From Coptis chinensis (lineage: Eukaryota > Streptophyta > Magnoliopsida > Ranunculales > Ranunculaceae), in assembly GCA_015680905.1 (NCBI GenBank), contig CM027378.1:78583501-78647500 (forward strand): a DNA stretch of 64,000 nucleotides, read 5' to 3'. The notes beneath the pieces are model-generated. The model was not told the DNA's origin and did no database searches. It saw only the letters and a list, made by a program, of their open reading frames with translations. Position 1 is the first letter of the stretch, and every line of letters begins with the position of its first letter. Shown piece after piece: positions 27,081-62,006 of this stretch. The translations under genes were made by a program, and so were the position numbers.

Positions 27081-27342
27081 GTATGTACTACTAAATAGTC
27101 ATAAACTCTTAAGGTTTCTTCCTTAGGGTTTGCACAGTGCACAACTGCACACTACCACCCCAAACCTTAGAGCATCTTTAGCAGTGATATCAACCTAGCA
27201 TCAAACACCAAATTCTCAATATTTGGTGTTTTTTCAACTTCAGGAGAACTACATGTTGATGAAAACACCAAAAAAACACCAAACCAAACACCAAATCGAC
27301 CAATATTTGGTTCCAGGTCTGGTGCTGTATCAAATCACTCAT

Positions 27343-27454
27343 GCGGTTTTGCCAAAACCGCGCGGGCTTGGGCTGCTAAATGGGCTTCTATGGCGCGGTT
27401 TTGGCAAAACCGCGTGGGCTTGGGTTTTAATGGGCGCGGTTTTGCCAAAACCGC
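27343..27454. repeat. Left cluster of three 19-bp GC-rich palindromes
   Basis: GCGGTTTTGCCAAAACCGC or its centre variant GCGGTTTTGGCAAAACCGC occurs at 27343-27361, 27395-27413 and 27436-27454. The first two are followed by CG(C/T)GGGCTTGGG. Each is almost perfectly self-complementary. Confidence 0.95.
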
Positions 27455-27692
27455 GTGCGTTTTTTCTGAAAATTAGAACTATGGTGCATAAAACTTGAAA
27501 AATTATGAGTTGTGCATAGAAGTTAAGAAATTAACAATTGTGCAATTGAATAAATTAAGAATTGTAATTCAAAATCGAAAAAATTAAAGAAATTAAAAAC
27601 CTATGATTATGATTATGCAGTCCAAAATCTATGATTATGATATAATCATATAATATCTAAAATAATCCAAAACCTATCATATTACATCAAAT

Positions 27693-29974
27693 TTATTTAG
27701 CTATCTTCTTATGCCCTTTACCACTCGATCCCTCTCCTCTCTCTATTTGGACGTTCCGAAGCTGCTCCTCTAAGTTCCTTATATGAGAATTATGATCTTC
27801 TCTGTCTGCACGGAGGTTAACTACTTCAGCCTGAAGTTCCTCATATCCCTGATGTTGCTGCGTGTACACTTGCTGCATATCCTCATACGCTTTCCGAAGT
27901 CTCGCCATCATACGCATTTGGGATTGCTGATATGTCCGAGAATATGCCTCCTCTCTTTCTTGGCTATAATGATACAGGCAGTCCTCATCCCATCAAACAT
28001 AAGAACACGGTTCTCATATCTTTCTAGAACCTCGACCTAAAAATCCAAGAAAATACAAGATGTGAGTACATATTATATATATAATGAAGAAGATAAATAA
28101 AACAATTAAACTCACCATGGTATCTTGATCAATATGCAGCTCTAAACTTCGAGAAACGAGCATGAGGCATCTCGGGAATGGAAATATAAGTAGGCTCCCC
28201 ATCGAGTCCACACACGCAAAAATCGAGGATTACTTGGCATTACCGGGAGTGGATGATATGCATTCGAGGGTTGTGGGTTGTAAACAGTATGGCGGATGAG
28301 GAATATGTAGCTCACATCTCATCCCTTCCGGGCCCACAAACTTCGAAGTTGCTAGCCCGACTAACGGGGAGCAACAACGAACCCATGGAGACATGGTTCC
28401 ACCATCTATATCTTGATCGATGATCCGCTTTCAACAACAAAAAAGACGATCCGTCCAAGGACCACCACCATGGAACTTCATGAACTTGAATTCTACCCCA
28501 CGACTTTGCATCACTAACATCCGGCATGGGAGCACATGGAACTCCATAACGTCCCATCATCCCTCCGACATCCAACATCCGCGGTACCAAACATTCAAAC
28601 CCGACAAATCGCGGCAAAAAACAACTCGTGGACGTGACAACACACAAGCATCTTTGTCTAACCGGATCGTCAAAGGCAGTAGACAAACACCAAGGTCTCC
28701 ACTCAATAGATGACAATGATCTAATGTCAATCTGAGCACGAGCCATATATACAGATATTATTCCTAATTAATCTGCCCTCTGTTACGAGTCAAGTGAGGC
28801 CCTGACCAACTAGCAAATCTAGGGCGATTATCAGTAATCATGTCTATGTTAGGAAAAAGACATCGAAAGTACTCGTAAAACCAAATTTCTAAAAGTCCCG
28901 TGAATCCTGCAATCTGAGGACTTCTACTTCTGAATGTCTGTGAAGCTTTATCTAACGCCGATATCAATGTGGCATATACTGAGCTACTCTAGTCATAATC
29001 TCTCATAGTATGCAAATCAGATACATAAGCATAATATCCCAGTCGTACCGTAGAATGACCATTGGGAAACAAAACATGCAATGATAAAACATCAAAAAAG
29101 CCCTAACATACTGATTAGCACCCTCACTACCCGGTAGAACAGTCAAAGCTAACTCCGCTCGTGTATCAGGATGCAAGAGGGGTTCCATATATGCAGTCTT
29201 AATATGAGATAGCTTAATCCCAAAAGAATCATAAGCATCCGCACCCAAACGAGGAAAACTCATAAGCATACTATCCATATTCTCATAATTTGTATGAAAA
29301 GGTATCGGTTGGCCTATACCGATACTCAACCCAAAAATCATAGTGAAGTCTAGTGGTGTGAACCCTAACTCTGCACAAGGAAAATGAAATGTATGAGTTC
29401 TACTCCACCATCTTTCTACTAAAGCTATGACCACTGCCCAATCAGCCTTCTCATAATCCGTATCAATCAAAATACCCAAAGGTGTATATAAAATACTATC
29501 TATAATATGTACAAACTCATCCAAACTCCTAATAACCTTCCACCACTCTCTAACACCAAGTAAAGCCGATCTAACTCGGTAGTCAACAACATGCTGATAT
29601 TATATAAAAAAAAATAATGCGTATAAGATAAATAATTAATTGGTCCAACTCAACTAATTAATATTCAAAATATTTAATCAAAACTAATTAATTACCTGAG
29701 TATTAGCCACTGTATTTGACACGTGTTTTGTATCACGTGTAGAAGACACAACTTCCATATCAAGTGCTTCTCCAGGTGCAAATTGCCAATCGAAGTCGTT
29801 CATCTGATACTCCAGTACATATGGATGTCTATCAGTCGGCGCGACATCCTCGGGTTCTTCTTCCCCACTGTCTTCTTCCCCACCGTATTCTACTTCCTCA
29901 GGTTCTTCTCCCTCATCGCCAATGTCGTCTGTGTACTGACAATCATCACCGTCGAAAGGTTCAAAAGGATCCAT
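27693..29974 (-). pseudogene. Plant mobile domain (PMD/MAIN-like) protein, decayed
   Basis: The gene starts at 29974 (MDPFEPFDGDD, a very acidic N-terminus). Its first intron has clear splice sites (donor after 29696, acceptor before 29593). Exon 2 carries the plant mobile domain (aminotransferase-like PMD, as in MAIN/MAIL1 and the long form of PP7): LLGVREWWKVIRSLDEFVHI, WWSRTHTFHFPCAELGFTPL and FGLSIGIGQPIPFH. Later parts read LLEIWFYEYFRCLFPN near 28900, IEWRPW near 28700 and LPVMPSNPRFLRVWTRWGAY near 28200. A last exon from 28036 encodes a coiled-coil-like tail (RKAYEDMQQVYTQQ, LRADREDHNSHIRNLEEQL). A frameshift near 29060, a stop near 28990 (W to stop) and a frameshift near 27960 show decay. 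The family's host members act in genome stability and silencing; the role of this copy is unknown. Confidence 0.82.
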
Positions 29975-30083
29975 ATCAAATTTTAAGAGTTTAGGTAGAT
30001 TTTTGTTTTTTTTTTAACTAAGGAGAGGGTTTTATAATTGTGAGAAGAGGTGAAAGTGACTGAACCGCGCGACTTTGGAGCTG

Positions 30084-30090
30084 TTTATAT
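30084..30090 (-). promoter_or_regulatory. TATA box of the PMD gene
   Basis: Read on the minus strand, CTATATAAAC lies about 110 bases upstream of the PMD start codon and between the palindrome cluster and the gene. A plausible core promoter supplied by the element's own end. Confidence 0.5.
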
Positions 30091-30100
30091 AGAAGTAGCA

Positions 30101-30225
30101 CGCGGTGTTCTGAACACCGCGCGGTTTTGCCAAAACCACGTGGGCTTGGGCCTGTCAGTTGGGCTTTAGTGGCGCGGTTTTGGCAAAATCGCGTGGGCTA
30201 TATGGCGCGGTTTTGGCAAAACCGT
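30101..30225. repeat. Right cluster of GC-rich palindromes
   Basis: The 19-bp motif recurs at 30121-30139, 30174-30192 and 30207-30225, each with at most one mismatch to the left-end versions. Beside it, 30101-30121 is a further perfect palindrome (CGCGGTGTTC, a central T, GAACACCGCG). Confidence 0.95.
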
Positions 30226-30328
30226 GTAGTTGCTTGGTGTTTTTTTGATATTGCTCCTAAAGTTGCTTGGTGTTTTTTTGGTTCAAAATTTTGGTGTTTT
30301 TTTTGTTGCTCTGCTAAAGATGCTCTTA

Positions 30329-31931: not shown

Positions 31932-33615
31932 ATGGGTACTCAGTTGGACAATTTACAGATTTTTCCGACGTTACAAACATCAAATGTTGCAAATCAATCC
32001 ACTAGAGAGCAAGGTAACAGTCCAACTATGGTGAACAACAAAGAGCAAAATACTCAACCAAACCCCCCCAGCCAACACATCTACGAGCTGGAGTTCTCTT
32101 TTTCAGGGTGGTACGGTCAGTCCCCCTAACACAACTCTCCAAAGGTTTGATCTTGATATGATAGAAGGTGTTACCCAAGTACCTTTAGATCTGCGATGGA
32201 AAGGTTTGAATCTGTGGAGAGATTATGTGGTGGGTTTCTTCGTGGAACAAAGGCTGCCATATCCGGTAGTAAAGGAAGCCTTGAAGAAAAAATGGAGAAC
32301 AAAGGGTGACTATGAGATGGTTGCGGATACTGATCTGTTTTACTTTAAGTTTTCCAATGAGGAAGATAAGAGGAAAGTGCTAGAAAATTCTCCTATATAT
32401 ATTGCAGGGAAATGCTTCATAGTTACCCAGTGGACACAGGATATTGAGAAGAGAAAGAGTACAGTGAAAGCAATACCAATTTGGGTAAATCTATACAATG
32501 TGCCGAAGGAGTTATGGACTGGGGAAGGGATGGGTTTTCTAGCCAGTCGAATAGGAGACCCCCAGAGAATGGATGAAGCTACAGCAACTAGGAAAAGACT
32601 CTTGTATGCTAGGGTTTGCATTTTGGTAGAAATTGCCTCAGAGTTACCTGAGTCATTTGATATCAATATGGGAGGTGAGGATATAAGGAAAATTACAGTG
32701 GAATATGGGTGGATACCAAAACTCTGTGATCATTGTAAGAGGTTAGGACACAAAATAGATGGATGCTTAAGGAGAGGCAATAATCAAAGGGCAGATACTC
32801 AGGTGGAAGTTGGGGTGACTACTAATGTGGAGGTGGACGAAAATAGAAACAATATAAATGAGATAGGGGAAGTTAACATAGGTCATATTGATGCAGCAGT
32901 CATAACTAGGCAAGCTGAAACAGTCAATACTGAGGGAGTGGATAGAACTGTAGGAAATCCTAATGAGGTTTCAATGGCTGAGTTAATTTTGAGTGCTATA
33001 GCAGTTGAAAGTGAAGGGGTACTAAGGAGAACTGATGAGACATCAGTGGTGGCTGAGAATGCAGAGGGAATAGTGGCTACGAAAGAGTCAACCCAACTGG
33101 TAGAGGGTTCTGAGGTGGTAGTAAATGAAACGAATATGGCTTTGGATAGAATTGAGGGCTCAGAGTTGGCAGTAGAGATAGCAACAGCAGAAGTAACAGA
33201 AGTAGCCACAGGGAATGCACAAGTTTATGATAGTGATAGTGACACTGAAATGAGCCAGAGTAATATGTTTGCGGCATTAGTGCCGTATGTGGAGGGTAGG
33301 CAGAGTGATGATATGCAGAATAACTCGAACCCTCTGATGCACTATGATCTAGAGCATAATGAGTATAATAATTTCCTGGAAGCTACTAGAAATGGGGACT
33401 TAGAGGACGAGGAGCCATCAGAGGATGAAACCCTCTACTTTAAGGATATGAACAATATTCCACTGGCTGATTTACAATCTCCGGCTACTCCAAGGAATGG
33501 AATTGAGACAAAGAATCAAGGAAAGAATACGAAGGAATCAAGTGGAAAGGAAAAAAAAGGAAAGAAGAGCAGGGGGCGTCCCAAGGGTTCAAAAAACAAA
33601 CACCCTAAGTTCTAA
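31932..33615 (+). pseudogene. L1 ORF1 (RNA-binding protein), one frameshift
   Basis: The probable start is MGTQLDNLQIFPTLQ at 31932. A single frameshift in a T-rich run near 32100 puts the rest in the frame that is open from about 32110, with its first Met at 32158. The second part holds the DUF4283 domain (about residues 10-150 counted from 32158: GLNLWRDYVVGFFVEQRLPY, AIPIWVNLYNVPKELW). It is followed by a zinc knuckle with C190, C193, H198 and C203 (LCDHCKRLGHKIDGC). A long acidic/valine-rich region and a basic tail (KGKKSRGRPKGSKNK, AT-hook-like GRPKGS) end it. ORF1 proteins of this type bind the LINE RNA. Confidence 0.9.
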
Positions 33616-36600
33616 ATGATAGGTCCTATTTGTATTTGGAATGTGAGGGGAGCTAATGATCTATTAAAAGCAAAGGAAATTAATAAGGTGAGGGTAGATA
33701 AGAAGCTGTGTATCTTTGGTTTACTGGAAATGAAAGTTAAGTATCCGAAGTATGATATCATAAGAAATATTTGCTGCCCTTCCTGGGAGCATATTGATAA
33801 CTATGGCAGGAGTCAGTCAGGCAGAATTTGGGTTTGCTGGGATCCAAATGTTATTAAAGTGGTTCTTTTAACATAGTCAGAACAGTTTATACATTGTAGA
33901 GTTACCTATCTTCCAGAAGCAAAAGACTTTTTACTCACAGTGGTATATGCGAGTAACTCATTACAAGAAAGGAGAGAGTTGTGGAAAGAGGTGATAGGCA
34001 TACAAAAATTGATACAGAAGCCATGGTGTGTAGCAGGAGATTTCAACAACATATTGACTGCAGATGAAAGGTTAGGTGGAGAACCAATGCATCCGAATGA
34101 AGCGGCTGATTTTAATATATGTCTTGAAATCACGGGGTACATGGGACATCAAGTCTACAAGATTCTTTTATACGTGGTGGAATAAATCCATTGGAACAGC
34201 CAGAGTCATGTCGAGGATAGATAGATGCCTGGTTAATAATTTGTGGCTAACTCGCTACCCACAAACTATAGCTGAATTTTTGCCGCAAGGAGTCTCGGAT
34301 CACTCTCCAATGCTGCTAACATGGAATGACTTCTCTAAAAAACCCACTCCTTTCAGATTTCGCAATTTTTGGGTTTATCAGACAGAGTTTAAGACTATGC
34401 TAGAGGATGTCTGGGGAATAGAAATCGCTAATAATCCGATGTATAAGTTGATGTAGAAACTCAAGTTACTAAAGGATAGGATTCGACCATGGGCACGGAG
34501 AAACTTATCCAATCTACATGAGAGAGTAAATGTAGCAAGGCAGATACTACAAGATGCTCAGGTTTTGCTCCAAAATAAGTCTGATGATGTCATGCTAGGA
34601 GAGGTAGAAAGGGAGGCCATGCAGAAATATATCAATCTCAATTTGAGCGTGACGATATATGGACCGTAAATCGAGGAAAAGTGGATGCTAGATGGCGACA
34701 GATGCACAAGTTATTTTTTCAATTGATTGAAGGAAAAAATAGCTAAGAAAGGTATATGGACTATTGTCAATGAAAATGGGGAGACAGTCCATGGACAGGC
34801 AGAAGTGGCAGGGATCATTGTTGACTATTTCACCAGGATGTTGGGCATTGCAGCAGCACCAGTTAGGGAAAGAGAGTTCTTCATGGATTTGAAAGTTCGG
34901 AATACTATTGAAGCGACTCTGTGTGATGTTCTAGAAGCCGAGGTGACGGGGGCGGAGATAAGAAAGGTAATTTTTTATATGGAGAATAACAAAGTGCCTG
35001 GACCTGATGGGTTTAATCCATTTTTCTTCAAAAAGTGCTGGGAAACAGTGGGAGACGATGTCATAAAAGCAGTCCAAAATTTCTTCAGAAACTTTAAGAT
35101 GCCACGGGGTATAAATGCAACTTTCTTGTGCCTCATTCCAAAGGTGAGCAATCCTTCAAGAGTGGAAGATTTTCGTCCTATTGCACTGTGCAACACGATA
35201 TACAAGTGTATCTCCAAAGTAATCACTTCTAGAATGCAACTGGTGATTTCTGACCTTGTTCATGAGAATCAGTCTGCTTTCATCCCAGGTAGATCTATAC
35301 AAGACAACATTCTCATGGCGCATGAAGTGTTAAGAGGGTACAATAGAAAACATGGTACGCCCAGATGTTCTATCAAACTAGATATCAGGAAGGCATATGA
35401 TACGGTCAGTTGGCAATCAATTCTTTACCTACTAGAGAGATTTGGATTTCCCCTGAAGATGCGCCGATGGATTCAAATGTGCATCAGTTCGCCATTCTAT
35501 TCTGTCTTGGTGAATGGGTCGCATGAAGGGTTTTTTGCTGGAGGGAGAGGGTTGAGACAGGGTGACCCCATGTCGCCATATCTTTTTGTGTTTGTCATGG
35601 AAATTCTGGGTATTGTAATCAGGGAGAGTATTGATTCAAAACTCATGCGCTACCATTCAAAATGCAAGAGAACTTTGTTGACGCATTTGGCCTTCGCGGA
35701 TGATGTCCTTATATTCTTCAAAGGGGAAGTAAGTTCTATTGAATCCCTCAGGGAGTGCTTGCATATCTTTAGTGAAGCGTCTGGCCTGAGTATTAACTCT
35801 CAAAAGACTACAATCATGACGGATGCCATGGAGCAACAAGAAGCAACAGTATTGTCTCAGTTACTGGGGCTGGAACTAGTGAAACCGCCAGTGAGATATC
35901 TCGGACTCCCACTTTTTTCTGATCGGCTGGGTATCAAAGACTGTCAACCTTTGATCGAGAGGATAACTTGTAGAATCAAGGATTGGAAAGCTAAACTATT
36001 ATCCCATGCAGGTAGATTACAATTGATTCTGTCGGTTTTGAGCTCGCTAAATATCTATTGGGCTCGTACATTCATTCTGCCTTTAATGGTCCTAGAACAA
36101 GTGGAGAAGATATGTGCCACTTTTCTCTGGAGTGGGACAGAAGCAAAGAGATGCGTGCATCAAGCAAGTTTGAGCACTATATGCAAAAAAAAGGAGGAGG
36201 GTGGGTTAGGCATGATGAATTTGAAAATATGGAATAAGGGTGCTCAGTGTGGGTTACTGTTCAAGATAGCAAGTAAAGACAGAAGTGTCTGGGTCAACTG
36301 GATTTGGGAGAATCAGATGAGAAGTAAGTACCTGTGGACCATGCCAATTCCAGCTGATTGTTCATGGTCATGGAGAAACATCTTGAAGTGTCGGAAAGAA
36401 GCAAGAGAGCTGATTAGATACTCGATCTCTAATGGCGAAGATACGCTACTCTGGCATGACATTTGGTGTGATAGTAGCCCATTACTCAACAATGCTCAAG
36501 CAATAGCAGAAATTTAGCTACCTCTCAATGCGACAGTGAAGGAACTCGTGTCAAATGGCGAGTGGAATAATACAATGAATGAGTTGCAGTGTCAAAACCT

Positions 36601-38915: not shown

Positions 38916-41900
38916 TGTGGTATCGGAGTTTTGTTTTAGAACACATGATAGTCCATTAGTTAGGATTACTTTGGATTGCCATAATCGGCATATGTAGATC
39001 CGTTTCTAACTCTGTTTTGCAGCAATTTATCGATCCAACTATTATGGTATGCATAAATGGTTTATGTTTAATTTATTCCGCAATTTTAATTAATGCACGA
39101 CCGTTTGATCGTGAGAAATCAATGTAATAGTTAAATATATTTGTGAATACGATAATTTTTATTTTTATTTTATTTTATTATTTTATTATTATTTATTTTA
39201 TTATTTTTTATTTTTTGGTCAGTACGGTTAGGTTTCACCATAGTGACCCTAACTATTAAACACTGAATTTTGGCCCTAGTAGTACCATCATGATGTTTAC
39301 AATACATATTGTTCAAACGCATGAAGCTTTTAATCGCCCACAGGCGGATTATATGTATACATCCAAACAATGATTAAGGAGTGTTTTGTTCGCACGTAGA
39401 CCAAGGATATTCACAGATCTTAATTAGGAGAAACATCACTCAATTTTTATCACCTTGAATATGACGACCTTAGATGGTATAATGTGTAGAAATTATGGTG
39501 ACTACCCACTGGAGCACCTAAATTTTATGTCGTATATATTCATACACGTGTTGTTTTAATTAAAAGCCTTATTGTATCTCTATTTGTAGTTATCATACCT
39601 ACCAATCTAAATTCGCATGCTACCTCTGTCACTAAGCTCAATGGAACCAACTTCTTAGAATGGAAAGAGCAAGTTGAGTTCACATTGGGGGTACTTGAAC
39701 TGGATATGGCTCTTCTTAATGGTAAGCCACCTCCACTTACTGCCGAAAGTACCGCTGAGGAAAAGAATCTCCTTATTACTTGGGAGAGGTCTGACAGACT
39801 AAGCATTATGTTTTTGCGAATGACTATTGCTACCAACATCAAAACATCCCTTCCTAAATTTGAGAATGCTAAGGACTACATGCAGTCCATTCAAGATAGG
39901 TTTAAGATTATATTGCAGACAAATCTCTTGCTGGGAAACTAATGGCAGATCTTACAACCATGAAGTTTGATGGCACTCGCTCAATGCATGAGCATGTCAT
40001 TTAGATGACCAACCTTGCAACAAAACTAAAGAATTTGGGACTATCAGTGGATGAGGCTTTTCTCGTCCAATTTATCTTGAATAGTTTACCTCCTCAGTAC
40101 GGGTCTTTCCAAATTCATTACAACACTATTACAGACAAGTGGACAATGAATGAATTGGCTAACAAACTAGTTCAAGAGGAGGCTAGGCTAAATCAACAAG
40201 GTATTAAAGTAGCTTATCTCGTTCAAGGAGCTGGACACAAAGCTGGGAGAAAGCATAATTCAAGCCATAAAAGGGCACCACCTAGATCTAATGAGGCTAG
40301 TCAAAACCCCAAGAAGACAAAGAAGGAAGACGTATGCAAATTTTGCAAGAAACCTGGACACTTTCAGGCAGACTGCACTAAATGCAAATAATGGTTCGAA
40401 AAGAAAGGTAACCCCATGGGTTTCATAAGTTATTTCGAATCAAATCTTACTTTTGCTTCTTCTGATACTTGGTGGATTGACACCGGTGCTAATGTTCATG
40501 TTTCCAACTCAATACAGGGATTCCTTACGATCCAAACCACAAACCCAAGTGAGAACTTCCTCTTCATGGGAAACAAAGACAAAGCTCCAGTTGAAGCTAT
40601 TGGAACCTTTCGTCTTGTTTTAGATAGCGGTTATCAGTTAGACTTATGTCAAACTCTTTATGTTCCGTCTATTTCCCGTAATTTGGTTTCAGTAAGTGCA
40701 CTTGATAAAGTTGGTTATTCGTTTGAAGTAGGAAATGGTATTTTCAGCTTATTCAAAAATTCTAGTCGAATTGTTTCTGGAATTTTGATTGAAGGTCTAT
40801 ACAAGTTTCATCTTGATAATCAAATTGCTGAAACCCATCTTACCCTACATTCTAAGGAAACAAAACGAGAGTCATCTTCAAATGACTCTTATTTCTTGTG
40901 GCATAAAAGACTGGGTCACATATCCAGTAAAAGAATCAAATGATTAGTAAAAGATGGTGTCCTTCCGGAGCTAAATTTTACTAATATTAAAGTATGTGTG
41001 GATTGTATTAAAGGAAAAACAACAAAACACACAAAGAAAGGAGCCACAAGAAGTACCCAGCTTCTTGAAATAATTCATACAGATAGTTGCGGATCTTTTG
41101 ACATTCCTTTGGGAGAGAAAAGTATTTCATTACCTTTATTGATGATTGCTCATGTTACTGTTATCTATACTTGTTGCATGACAAATCTCAGTCTATAGAT
41201 GCTGTACAAGTGTTCATTATTGAAGTCGAACGGCAACTAGACAGAAAAGTGAAAATCATAAGGTCTGATAGAGGTGGTGAGTTTTATGGAAGGTATGACG
41301 AAACAGGACAACATCCTGGACCTTTCGCATAACTACTTCAAAAGCATGGAATTGTTGCCCAATACACAACGCCTGGTTCCCCATGGCAGAATGGTATAGC
41401 TGAAAGGCGAAATCGTACATATATGGAAATGGTTAGATCCATGATGAGTCATGCTAACTTACCTATATCCTTATGGATGGATGCTCTATGCACAGCTGTT
41501 TATATCTTGAACAGGGTTCCCAGTAAAGTAGTTCCAAAAACACCTTTTGAACTATGGAAAGGATGGAAACCTAGTTTAAGACATCTCCAAGTATGGGGTT
41601 GTCCAGCTGAGGCTAGAATCTACAATCCACATGAAAAGAAATTGGACTTTAAAACGATTAGTGGTTACTTTATAGGTTACCCAGAAAAGTCCAAAGGATT
41701 TAGGTTCTACTGTCCTAACCATAGTACGAGAATTGTTGAAACCAATAATGCCAAATTCTTTGAGAATGGCGAAATTAGTGGGAGTAATAAAACTCAAGAT
41801 GTGATCATTCAGGAAATAAGGGTACCTATTATTTTTCCCTCTATTCCGAAAGATGTTGGAAACCCTCCCGTTGTTGAACCTTTTCACAATGAGGAAAACC

Positions 41901-44019
41901 CAATAAATGATCAACAACTCCATAATGATATTATCGCCAACCAACACATGGATGAAGCACCAGAGGAACCAGCATTAAGAAGGTCTCAAAGAGAAAAGAG
42001 ATCCGCTATTTCCAATGATTACATGCTTTACCAAGTTGAATCTGAAGAATGGACAATTAAAGACCCGGGTTCTTATTCACAAGCCATTAAGGATGTTAAT
42101 TCTAGTAAATGGATTGATGCCATGAAGGATGAACTGAAATCTATGGATGAAAATCAAGTATGGAAAGTTGTTCAATTGCCTCCAGGACACAAACCAGTTG
42201 GTTGTAAATGGGTCTTCAAGACCGAACGCAACTGTAAAGGCAATATTGAACGATATAAAGCTAGACTTGTTGCCAAAGGTTTCAATCAGAAAGAAGGCAT
42301 TGATTATACTGAGACATTTTCCCCTGTGTCCAGGAAGGATTCTCTTAGAATCATCATGGCATTAGTAGCTCACTATAATCTCGAGTTACATCAAATGGAT
42401 GTGAAAACCGCCTTTCTTAATGGAAACTTAGATGAAAAAGTCTACATGAGTCAACCTGAAGGCTTCAAAATTGAAGGTCAGGAAGACATGGTCTGCAAAC
42501 TTAAGAAATCAATATATGGACTGAAACAAGCTTCGAGGCAGTGGTATCTAAAGTTTCATGAAATCATTACTCAATTCAATTTCAAAGAAAACATAGTTGA
42601 CCCTTGCATATATCTCAAGATCAGTGGGAGTAAGTTTATATTTTTGGTTCTGTATGTTGATGATATATTACTGGCTAGTAGCAACCTTGGTTTATTACAT
42701 GCTACAAAGGATTATCTCTTTGAGAACTTTGAAATGAAAATATGGGTGAGGCTTCTTATGTGATAGGAATAGAAATATTTCGTGATAGGTCACTTGGTAT
42801 TTTGGGATTGTCTCAGAAAGCATATATTGACAAAGTTCTAGAGCGATTTGGCATGATGACATGTTCCTCTAGCCCTATTCCACTGCATAAAGGAGACAAG
42901 CTTGATCTTGAGCAGTGTCCACAGAATCCTTTGGAACGTAAAGAAATGGGAAAATATCCTTATGCTTCTCTTGTAGGGAGTTTGATGTATGCACGGGTCT
43001 GTACTAGACTTGACATTAGTCATGTTGTTGGCATACTGGGTAGATTTTAGAGTAACCCAGGAATTGCTCATTGGAAAGTTGCAAAGAAAGTGCTGAGATA
43101 CCTCAAGGGAACAAGAAATTATATGCTCACATACAAAAAATCAAATCACCTACAGGTGATTGGTTATTCAGATTCAGATTTTGCTGGATGTCCTGACACT
43201 AGACTTTGCACTTTTGGCTATGTGTATCTCTTATGTGGAGGTGCAATATCATGGAAAAGCCAGAAATATGAGTTGCTTTACACATCCACCATGATGGCTG
43301 AATATGTGGCATGTTATGAGGCTACAATTCAGGGAACATGGTTGCGCAATTTTGTCTCTCAATTCGACACTTTGAGTTTCATCTCTAAGCCATTAACACT
43401 CTATTGTGACAATGAAGTTGCAACCTTCTTCTCCAAGCATGACAGGATATCTAAGGGAGCCAAACACATGGACCTTAAATATCTATCACTGAAGCAAGAT
43501 GTTAAATTAAAGAAAATTGTCATTGACTCTATACGTACAGATTACATGGTCGCACACATATTCACGAAAGGACTACCTCCAAAGATATTTCAGGGACATA
43601 CTAAAAGCATGGGTCTTGAAGATAGTTCTTAATTATCATTTTCTGCTTTTATTTCTGTACTTGTATTTGACATTTATTGAGCTCTTAAAACAATTCTACA
43701 TCTACGATTTCTGTTTTCCATTGTGCACACATTTACGTTTGGATGAATGATAACAGAAATAGTCTTTAAACAAAGACATTACGAGACCATTACGTAAATA
43801 TCCTATTACGGTCTAACTATATAAAAGTTGTAAATGACGTAGTACATGGAAGTAAGCATGTTACAAAATAATGTGTGCACGCCATGACTCCCATTGACAA
43901 CCGAATTAGCCACGACACTTATGATAACCGACTAAAGAAGTATTTAGCATATAATGCGCGCCTTATGATTCCTAAAATGAAATCACTGATGGATCTTCCT
44001 ATCGACCAAGTGGGAGACT

Positions 44020-60900: not shown

Positions 60901-62006
60901 GCAGTAATCGAGCCATTTGTGATTGCTACGAATAGACAATTGAGTGTACTCCACCCAATCCACAAGCTTTTGCATCCTCATTTTAGGGATACAATGAATA
61001 TAAATGCCCTGGCTCGGCAGATCCTCATTAATGCGTATGGTGTACTAGAGAACACCGTCTTTCCAGCCAAATACTCTATGGAAATGTCTTCTGTGATTTA
61101 TAAGGGCTGGGTTTTCACTGAACAAGGTCTCCCAGCAGATCTCATTAAAAGGTACTGTACAATGTCAAAAAATTTGAAACTTTCTTGTATTTATATATAA
61201 TTTGAACTAATAGAACCCCCATGAACATTTCGTTCAGAGGAATAGCAGTTGAAGACCCAAGCCACCCTCATGGTCTCCGCTTACTGATTGAACACTATCC
61301 ATATGCTGTTGATGGTCTAGAGATCTGGTCAGCAATCGAGACATGGGTTAAGGAGTATTGTTCTTCCTACTACCCAAGTGATGAAATTGTCCAATGTGAC
61401 CCTGAGCTCCAGTCCTGGTGGGCAGAAATTCGTGATGTCGGTCATGGTGACAAGAAGAATGAGCCATGGTGGCCCAAGATGCATACAGTCGCTGAGCTAA
61501 CCCAGTCCTGCACCATTATCATATGGGTGGCCTCAGCCCTCCATGCAGCAGTCAATTTTGGACAGTACACCTATGCAGGTTACGTTTGCAACCGTCCAAC
61601 AATAAGCCGTCGCTTCATGCCTGAGCCTGACACTGACGAGTACGCTGAACTCGAGTTAAACCCTGATCGAGCCTTCCTCAAAACAATCACAAGTCAGCTT
61701 CATACACTCCTTGGTGTGTCCTTAATAGAGATACTGTCCAGGCATTCTTCCGATGAAGTCTATCTTGGACAGAGAGACCCTCAGGAGTGGACATTAGATC
61801 CCGAACCACTGAAAGCATTTGACAGGTTTAGAAATAGGCTGGTGAAGATCGAAAACAGAATTAAAGAATTAAATGAAGACGAACAACAGAAAAATCGGAA
61901 AGGGCTTGTCAATGTTCCATATACATTGCTCTGTCCAAACACCAGTGAAGATTCAACGGTCGGTGGACTTATAGGATATGGTATTCCCAACAGTGTCTCT
62001 ATATAA
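57991..62006 (+). CDS. LOX1: Linoleate 9S-lipoxygenase (LOX1/LOX5-like), nine exons
   Basis: Exons: 57991-58222, 58803-59092, 59283-59523, 59620-59955, 60112-60197, 60312-60419, 60508-60812, 60888-61151 and 61238-62006. Splice sites are GT-AG, phases agree, and the product is 876 residues. The N-terminal PLAT domain covers exons 1-2 ([38 protein letters not shown]). Exon 3 has the usual [20 protein letters not shown]. The lipoxygenase domain carries iron ligands H532 and H537 (SHWLNTH), H723 and N727 ([10 protein letters not shown]), and the terminal I876 (GIPNSVSI). Thr-Val in [14 protein letters not shown] is the usual 9-LOX determinant (13-LOX have a bulkier pair). Ala at the Coffa position (INAYG) fits S stereochemistry. 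No plastid transit peptide is seen, so it should be cytosolic. It would add oxygen to linoleic/linolenic acid at C-9, feeding oxylipin defence pathways. The N-terminus ([18 protein letters not shown]) aligns with tobacco MLGGIVDAIQGKDD, by recall. The gene looks intact. LOX1 is a family-level symbol. Confidence 0.97.

Follow-up and report, generated by a model that had tools for sequence, protein, structure and literature searches.

A decayed non-autonomous PIF/Harbinger transposon of Coptis chinensis carrying a plant mobile domain gene

Introduction

Plant mobile domains (PMDs) occur in the host silencing factors MAIN and MAIL1 and in transposons. The passages of PMC5418596 and PMC8616336 devoted to them describe PMDs carried by Gypsy retrotransposons or fused to the transposases of Mutator-like elements (MULEs), and an anti-silencing role is proposed there for the transposon-borne forms. 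For the PIF/Harbinger superfamily, the zebrafish element Harbinger3_DR is reported to encode a Myb-like protein that binds a 9-bp subterminal motif (PMC9710019, in the part concerned with that element), and in tea phased small RNAs arise from PMD and transposase genes (PMC10673657, in the section on these genes). Here we analyse a 64,000-bp stretch of the Coptis chinensis genome (contig CM027378.1 of assembly GCA_015680905.1, positions 78,583,501 to 78,647,500; hereafter the window, whose numbering is used throughout), in which a preliminary description had noticed a transposon with a single PMD gene at 27170-30325. This element is real and well formed, and was correctly spotted. It is a decayed non-autonomous transposon with the PMD gene as its only gene, and we consider it probable that it is a copy of a non-autonomous PIF/Harbinger family in which a PMD gene replaces the transposase gene and sister elements supply the transposition proteins in trans.

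No report of a PMD gene in a PIF/Harbinger element was found in the literature searched, a body of text that leaves most subscription papers and repeat databases outside. The passages of PMC8616336, PMC4583175 and PMC10673657 that treat PMDs together with Harbinger elements or transposases place no PMD gene in PIF/Harbinger, and the terms 'PMD', 'plant mobile' and 'Harbinger' do not occur in the main text of a gene-capture review (PMC13317346).

Results

The window element is a 3,156-bp transposon whose inverted ends match perfectly over 15 bp and are flanked by TTA (27167..27169 and 30326..30328, neither assigned to a strand). The left terminal inverted repeat GAGCATCTTTAGCAG (27170..27184, plus strand) leads into a left-type end TGATATCAAC, and the right one (30311..30325, minus strand) into a right-type end AGCAACAAAA. 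Inverted termini of 17 bp with TTA on both sides had been described; the inverted ends and the TTA, read directly outside both of them, stand, but the perfect match is 15 bp long. At 57 bp inside the right end the terminus is repeated imperfectly as a GGAG-type copy, AAGCAACTTTAGGAG (30254..30268, minus strand), which recurs in other PMD and transposase elements and is perhaps the trace of an older end. In the 935.6 Mb of genome searched, the exact terminus GAGCATCTTTAGCAG occurs 300 times against once for a reversed control. Twenty-two elements with paired exact termini (the window element, 20 fetched copies and L006) comprise 12 with a PMD gene, six with a PIF-type transposase and a second gene, and four short miniature inverted-repeat transposable elements (MITEs). 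Five further bounded PMD elements (L068-L070, L072 and L073) came from the PMD search and bring the set to 27, of which 17 are PMD elements. Identical TTA or TAA is found on each side of 25 of the 27, L017 and L019 being one base off. The PMD copy L071 (about 98-530), with a left terminus, no recognisable right terminus and different sequence joined just upstream of its exon 1 region, was omitted from the end comparisons. One MITE, L006 (1501-1844, 344 bp), has two right-type ends, which suggests that one end was duplicated in inverted orientation.

The transposase-bearing sisters place the window element in its superfamily. L020 (3.53 kb) has the same termini and palindromes as the window element and a TAA duplication, and encodes a transposase in an open frame of 459 codons, 443 of them from the ATG, with matches to PF04827 (E 6.3e-91) and PF13359 (8.5e-14); L012, L015, L016, L020, L024 and L025 all match this transposase and share the termini. 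A second gene in L020 reads on the opposite strand from the other end of the element; its product has a NAM-associated domain (PF14303, 7.5e-8, above the cut-off), and its N-terminal piece gave no domain match. In the 6.0-kb copy L024, about 2.7 kb of sequence interrupts the transposase gene. Within the window element the PIF-type transposase query had no match, in agreement with the preliminary description, so the element lacks the transposase of an autonomous PIF/Harbinger member. Its TTA/TTA duplication is the 3-bp TTA/TAA type of PIF/Harbinger elements, and since same-ended sisters carry a PIF-type transposase it is a non-autonomous member of that superfamily. Across the genome the PMD exon query has at least 150 matches (150 scored of 2,370 first-look candidates) and the transposase query at least 98 (95 scored of 2,635), both being lower bounds that cannot be used as a ratio.

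The PMD gene lies on the minus strand and is predicted to have three exons in the order 29974-29696, 29593-28116 and 28036-27693, with GT/AG borders. Exon 1 (29696..29974) has 93 codons, is acidic and begins with an ATG at 29974, the position held by the transposase ATG in sister elements. Exon 2 (28116..29593) contains the PMD; its first stop follows 196 exon codons, and its counterpart in L068 is open over 509 codons. The frame of exon 3 (27693..28036) is broken in the window copy, where an AG acceptor and a stop were read, and open counterparts exist in L068 and L071. A TATA box (TATATAA, 30085..30091, minus strand) precedes the gene and is absent at the same place in five aligned transposase elements. 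The piece at 29006-29593 matches PF10536 with 46.5 bits (E 3.7e-12; Pfam cut-off 34.9), and L068, L069 and L071 reach 84.7-96.2 bits against the same cut-off; the shorter open reading frame pieces of the window gave no PMD match. When conceptually spliced, the window gene has 33 stops, the earliest at codon 290. The earlier claim that the element has one PMD gene is thus borne out as regards the gene, but not as regards the coding of an intact protein. Compared with eight other PMD loci of the genome, the PMD of this family is 23-28% identical to five and has no or marginal matches to three.

Comparison of the two gene classes reveals shared ends around a swapped interior. The right ends can be aligned between the terminus and a point just beyond the start codon, which has the same position in both classes, and the likeness ends within about ten bases. 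In 12 of the 17 PMD and five of the six transposase elements, column identity over columns 1-100 is 0.931 among PMD elements, 0.944 among transposase elements and 0.938 between the classes, whereas over the core promoter and leader (columns 229-351) the values are 0.918, 0.951 and 0.588. Left ends are alike between the classes over the outer 200-300 bp or so and differ in the interior beyond. Matched ends with a diverged promoter could result either from exchange of ends between the classes or from a requirement of the transposase common to both; trees of the ends have too few starred branches to tell whether PMD uptake happened once.

The ends of the two classes also match across two terminus subfamilies. 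The variant terminus of the second, GGAG subfamily, GAGCATCTTTAGGAG, preceded by TTA or TAA, occurs 752 times genome-wide (control 0). Terminus types were checked along contig C1 and over the first 50.8 Mb of C2, an exact end being sought within 4 kb: among the 16 PMD loci listed there, seven lie by a GCAG end, five by a GGAG end and four by neither, and the 13 listed transposase loci divide into two, ten and one. The diagnostic end GGAGAGCTACC is present in both PMD (L068, L070, L108 and L116) and transposase (L114 and L115) elements. An eight-row clade of the PMD tree (100/98) has GGAG ends in all five rows whose ends were read, the other three showing no end at the place tried, and one GGAG end was read in L073, which lies immediately outside the clade. 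In the tree of the transposases, the copies known to be GCAG-ended (L012, L015, L016, L020, L025 and L095) fall in a single 12-row clade (95/87), ends having been read for six of its twelve rows; of the seven remaining rows, L112 has a GGAA end and the others are GGAG-ended. As PMD and transposase genes are each found with either terminus, the two kinds of element have kept matching ends through a terminus change. At L108 (G000:C1:19867500-19867850), GGAG-type transposase and PMD elements stand head to head with their right ends about 175 bp apart.

Both ends of the window element carry palindromes, none assigned to a strand. Three exact 19-bp palindromes lie on the left (L1, 27343..27361; L2, 27395..27413; L3, 27436..27454), and the right-hand three (R3, 30121..30139; R2, 30174..30192; R1, 30207..30225) have a single mismatch apiece; the six in the window compare with a shuffled mean of 0.01. 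Counted from the respective end, the outermost palindrome starts at base 174 on the left and at base 101 on the right, and successive palindromes are spaced by 52 and 41 in the left cluster and by 33 and 53 in the right one. The three 19-bp palindromes per end that had been described are there in number, with exactness confined to the left three, and the symmetry claimed for the clusters extends to equal number but not to placement. A further palindrome at 30101..30121, also described before, is confirmed with nine of nine arm pairs matched; its sequence differs (arms CGCGGTGTT / AACACCGCG), and it lies about ten bases upstream of the TATA box of the PMD gene.

Genome-wide the exact palindrome is found 736 times, all genomic contexts counted together, against 0 for the reversed control, and when up to three mismatches are allowed the 27 elements contain 141 sites (reversed pattern 0). 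All 17 PMD elements, all six transposase elements and three of the four MITEs have palindromes near both ends, and the remaining MITE at one end only, so that the repeated motif lies in non-coding ends of 27 of 27 elements. Each of the 17 PMD elements thus keeps the paired clusters, a point that the preliminary description had wished to see checked, and transposase elements and MITEs have palindromes at similar distances from the ends rather than elsewhere. Elements with the same termini and no PMD gene do exist, but none among the 27 is without palindromes. A tie of the palindromes to the PMD gene in particular is thus not supported, transposase sisters and MITEs with the same termini having them too; because all 22 paired-terminus elements have palindromes (one MITE at one end only), these are a property of the shared ends.

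What reads the palindromes can be approached from their distribution. It had been suggested that the end palindromes and the TATA box form the promoter of the PMD gene, and the right-hand palindromes do lie directly upstream of the TATA box. In the broader version, the palindromes would mainly serve promoters, as targets of a transcription factor encoded by the host or by the element, with no role in transposition. The transposase elements suit this version, each cluster there being upstream of a gene (the transposase gene on the right and the second gene on the left), but the left cluster of the PMD elements is downstream of their gene and is kept nonetheless in 17 of 17, and three of the four gene-less MITEs keep sites at both ends; we regard it as unlikely. 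By analogy with VANC of the VANDAL elements, which binds short repeated motifs in the non-coding parts of its own elements (PMC5735166, in its passages on VANC), the PMD protein might instead recognise the palindromes as a sequence-specific anti-silencing factor for all their carriers. The numerous, non-coding sites common to both gene classes, their place directly upstream of the PMD TATA box and the proposed anti-silencing role of transposon-borne PMDs speak for such recognition, but the palindromes are equally present where there is no PMD gene, a transposition site explains them with no need of the PMD protein, DNA binding by a PMD protein does not appear in the literature passages on PMDs, and the fourth palindrome differs between the classes. 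This proposal seems to us quite improbable. A still bolder version, to which we give slim chances, is a two-element partnership in which one set of elements gives the transposase and the other a palindrome-recognising, silencing-lifting PMD protein, both multiplying together with their ends in register. Elements devoid of the PMD gene have the same palindromes, so docking of the second protein or the transposase is the simplest reading, in keeping with the subterminal binding of the Myb-like protein in Harbinger3_DR. Judged from sequence, the transposition machinery is a better candidate than the PMD protein for what would bind the palindromes.

Variation within the palindromes was also surveyed. 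The usual form of the fourth palindrome is CGCGGTGTTC-GAACACCGCG among PMD copies and CGCGGTTTTCCAGAAACCGCG or a close variant among transposase copies, both dyads; fewer than nine of nine arm pairs match in 5 of 11 PMD rows and in six of six transposase rows. G-to-A or C-to-T changes account for half of the pooled palindrome mismatches as counted (81 of 159), as might be expected of methylated cytosines. The dyads contain 16 compensated double changes, where shuffling gives a mean of 8.7 and reaches 16 or more in 22 of 2000 shuffles, but 11 of the 16 are the same TA-to-GC replacement at one pair of the dyad; this covariation seems mostly to represent the fourth palindrome inherited by many copies, and the support from it is weak.

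Elsewhere in the window, a DUF4283 frame followed by an RVT_1 reverse transcriptase frame (32158-36517) is consistent with a retroelement of the long interspersed nuclear element type, an RVT_2 reverse transcriptase frame (41423-42763) marks a Copia-type element, and the C-terminal part of a lipoxygenase gene lies at 61221-62006 (PF00305, E 2.5e-111).

Discussion

Directly observed are the shared termini, the TTA/TAA duplications, the palindrome arrays, the transposase of the sister elements, the swapped interior and the matching ends in two subfamilies. We propose that the same-ended sisters would supply in trans both the transposase and the second protein, putatively Myb-like; that the PMD carriers are likely moved by the sisters' transposase; and that the palindromes are likely dimeric docking sites for the second protein or the transposase. 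Our leading guess for the PMD gene is that it was an accessory giving its carriers an advantage, most plausibly against silencing.

Several observations weigh against this proposal. The Myb/SANT match of the second protein is weak (Myb_DNA-bind_5, E 0.019 in L024, below the cut-off). In 15 of the 17 PMD and all six transposase elements, conservation is 0.887 in the palindrome columns (0.940 in the inner GGTTTT/AAAACC) against 0.801 in the intervening spacers, but the outermost 100 columns, at 0.914, are as conserved, so the palindromes do not stand out by their high conservation. By the exon borders of the window copy, an open spliced PMD gene exists in none of the 17 full-length copies, the window's included, and current activity is therefore not indicated; the nearest to open is L019 with two stops, and L068 has exons 2 and 3 open and a stop in exon 1. 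The domain is open over 275 codons in 7 of 39 copies, several of which were chosen for long frames. Twenty stop positions occur in the 39 domain copies, three of them common to two, three and four copies (the frameshift listing is unreliable, indel places varying in the alignment). The slope of the pairwise ratio of non-synonymous to synonymous change is 0.41 in frame against 0.57 and 0.40 off frame; in 31 of the 39 copies singletons look neutral (0.98), and shared variants give 0.66 in frame with off-frame controls of 0.61 and 0.71. Neither test separates the true frame from its controls.

Such decay would suit a functionless passenger, the PMD gene having entered a PIF element by chance recombination and the hybrid having amplified through its good ends; the multiplication of short gene-less MITEs points the same way. 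Differences fixed between PMD subfamilies of 8 and 28 copies (L071, L073 and L081 omitted) argue otherwise at one threshold, with a ratio of 0.44 against 1.14 for singletons (p 0.042) and 1.4-1.5 off frame. At a stricter threshold the ratio is 0.65 (p 0.34), the off-frame readings over both thresholds being 1.2-1.5. The transposase, in 17 of 19 copies, gave 0.43 (p 0.023) and, more strictly, 0.60 (p 0.40), with off-frame values of 0.63 and 1.84 (strict 0.51 and 2.05), one of which is near or below the true frame. The comparison hints at past constraint on the PMD frame, the selection signal being weak. The passenger is further opposed by the number of PMD matches and their association with termini of either type, an exact terminus adjoining 12 of the 16 loci checked, and by a domain that still scores 46-96 bits in Pfam. 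We give a functionless passenger somewhat less than an even chance, and keep as our leading guess a PMD gene that served its carriers as an accessory.

The family offers a natural matched comparison within one genome, of same-ended elements with a PMD gene, with a transposase and with neither, and the matched pair allows a test of what passenger genes do for a transposon. Were the two-element partnership true, sequence-specific anti-silencing would have evolved a second time, independently, among plant transposons, here with its parts divided between two kinds of element.

With PIF/Harbinger elements and their MITEs, such as rice Ping/mPing and zebrafish Harbinger3_DR, the family shares the 3-bp TTA/TAA duplication, short terminal repeats, subterminal motifs, a PIF-type transposase with a second gene in the sister elements, and dependent non-autonomous copies. 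It differs from them in a non-autonomous class where a three-exon PMD gene takes the position of the transposase gene and in its long CGCGGTTTT-N3-AAAACCGCG dyads. VANDAL elements, as presented in the VANC passages of PMC5735166, embody the same idea of an accessory gene together with short motifs repeated in non-coding parts, PMD binding being hypothetical here; unlike the present PIF/Harbinger family, VANDALs are MULEs of the non-TIR (terminal inverted repeat) kind according to the relevant part of PMC13317346. The PMD-A class of Ty3/Gypsy elements, in the PMD passages of PMC5418596, likewise has a transposon-borne PMD, the carrier in the present case being a cut-and-paste DNA transposon. 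Another related system is the PMD-C class, the PMD-MULE of grasses and Amborella treated in the same passages, where a DNA transposon has also taken up a PMD gene. PMD-C joins the PMD to a MULE transposase in a fusion, whereas here the PMD is free-standing, in an element with no transposase and of another superfamily: instead of a fused MULE transposase and MULE ends, we found no transposase with the PIF query, a 3-bp duplication and PIF-type sisters. The present locus thereby extends PMD uptake to the PIF/Harbinger superfamily, the new point being a free-standing PMD gene in the non-autonomous arm of a family whose ends are matched with those of its transposase arm.

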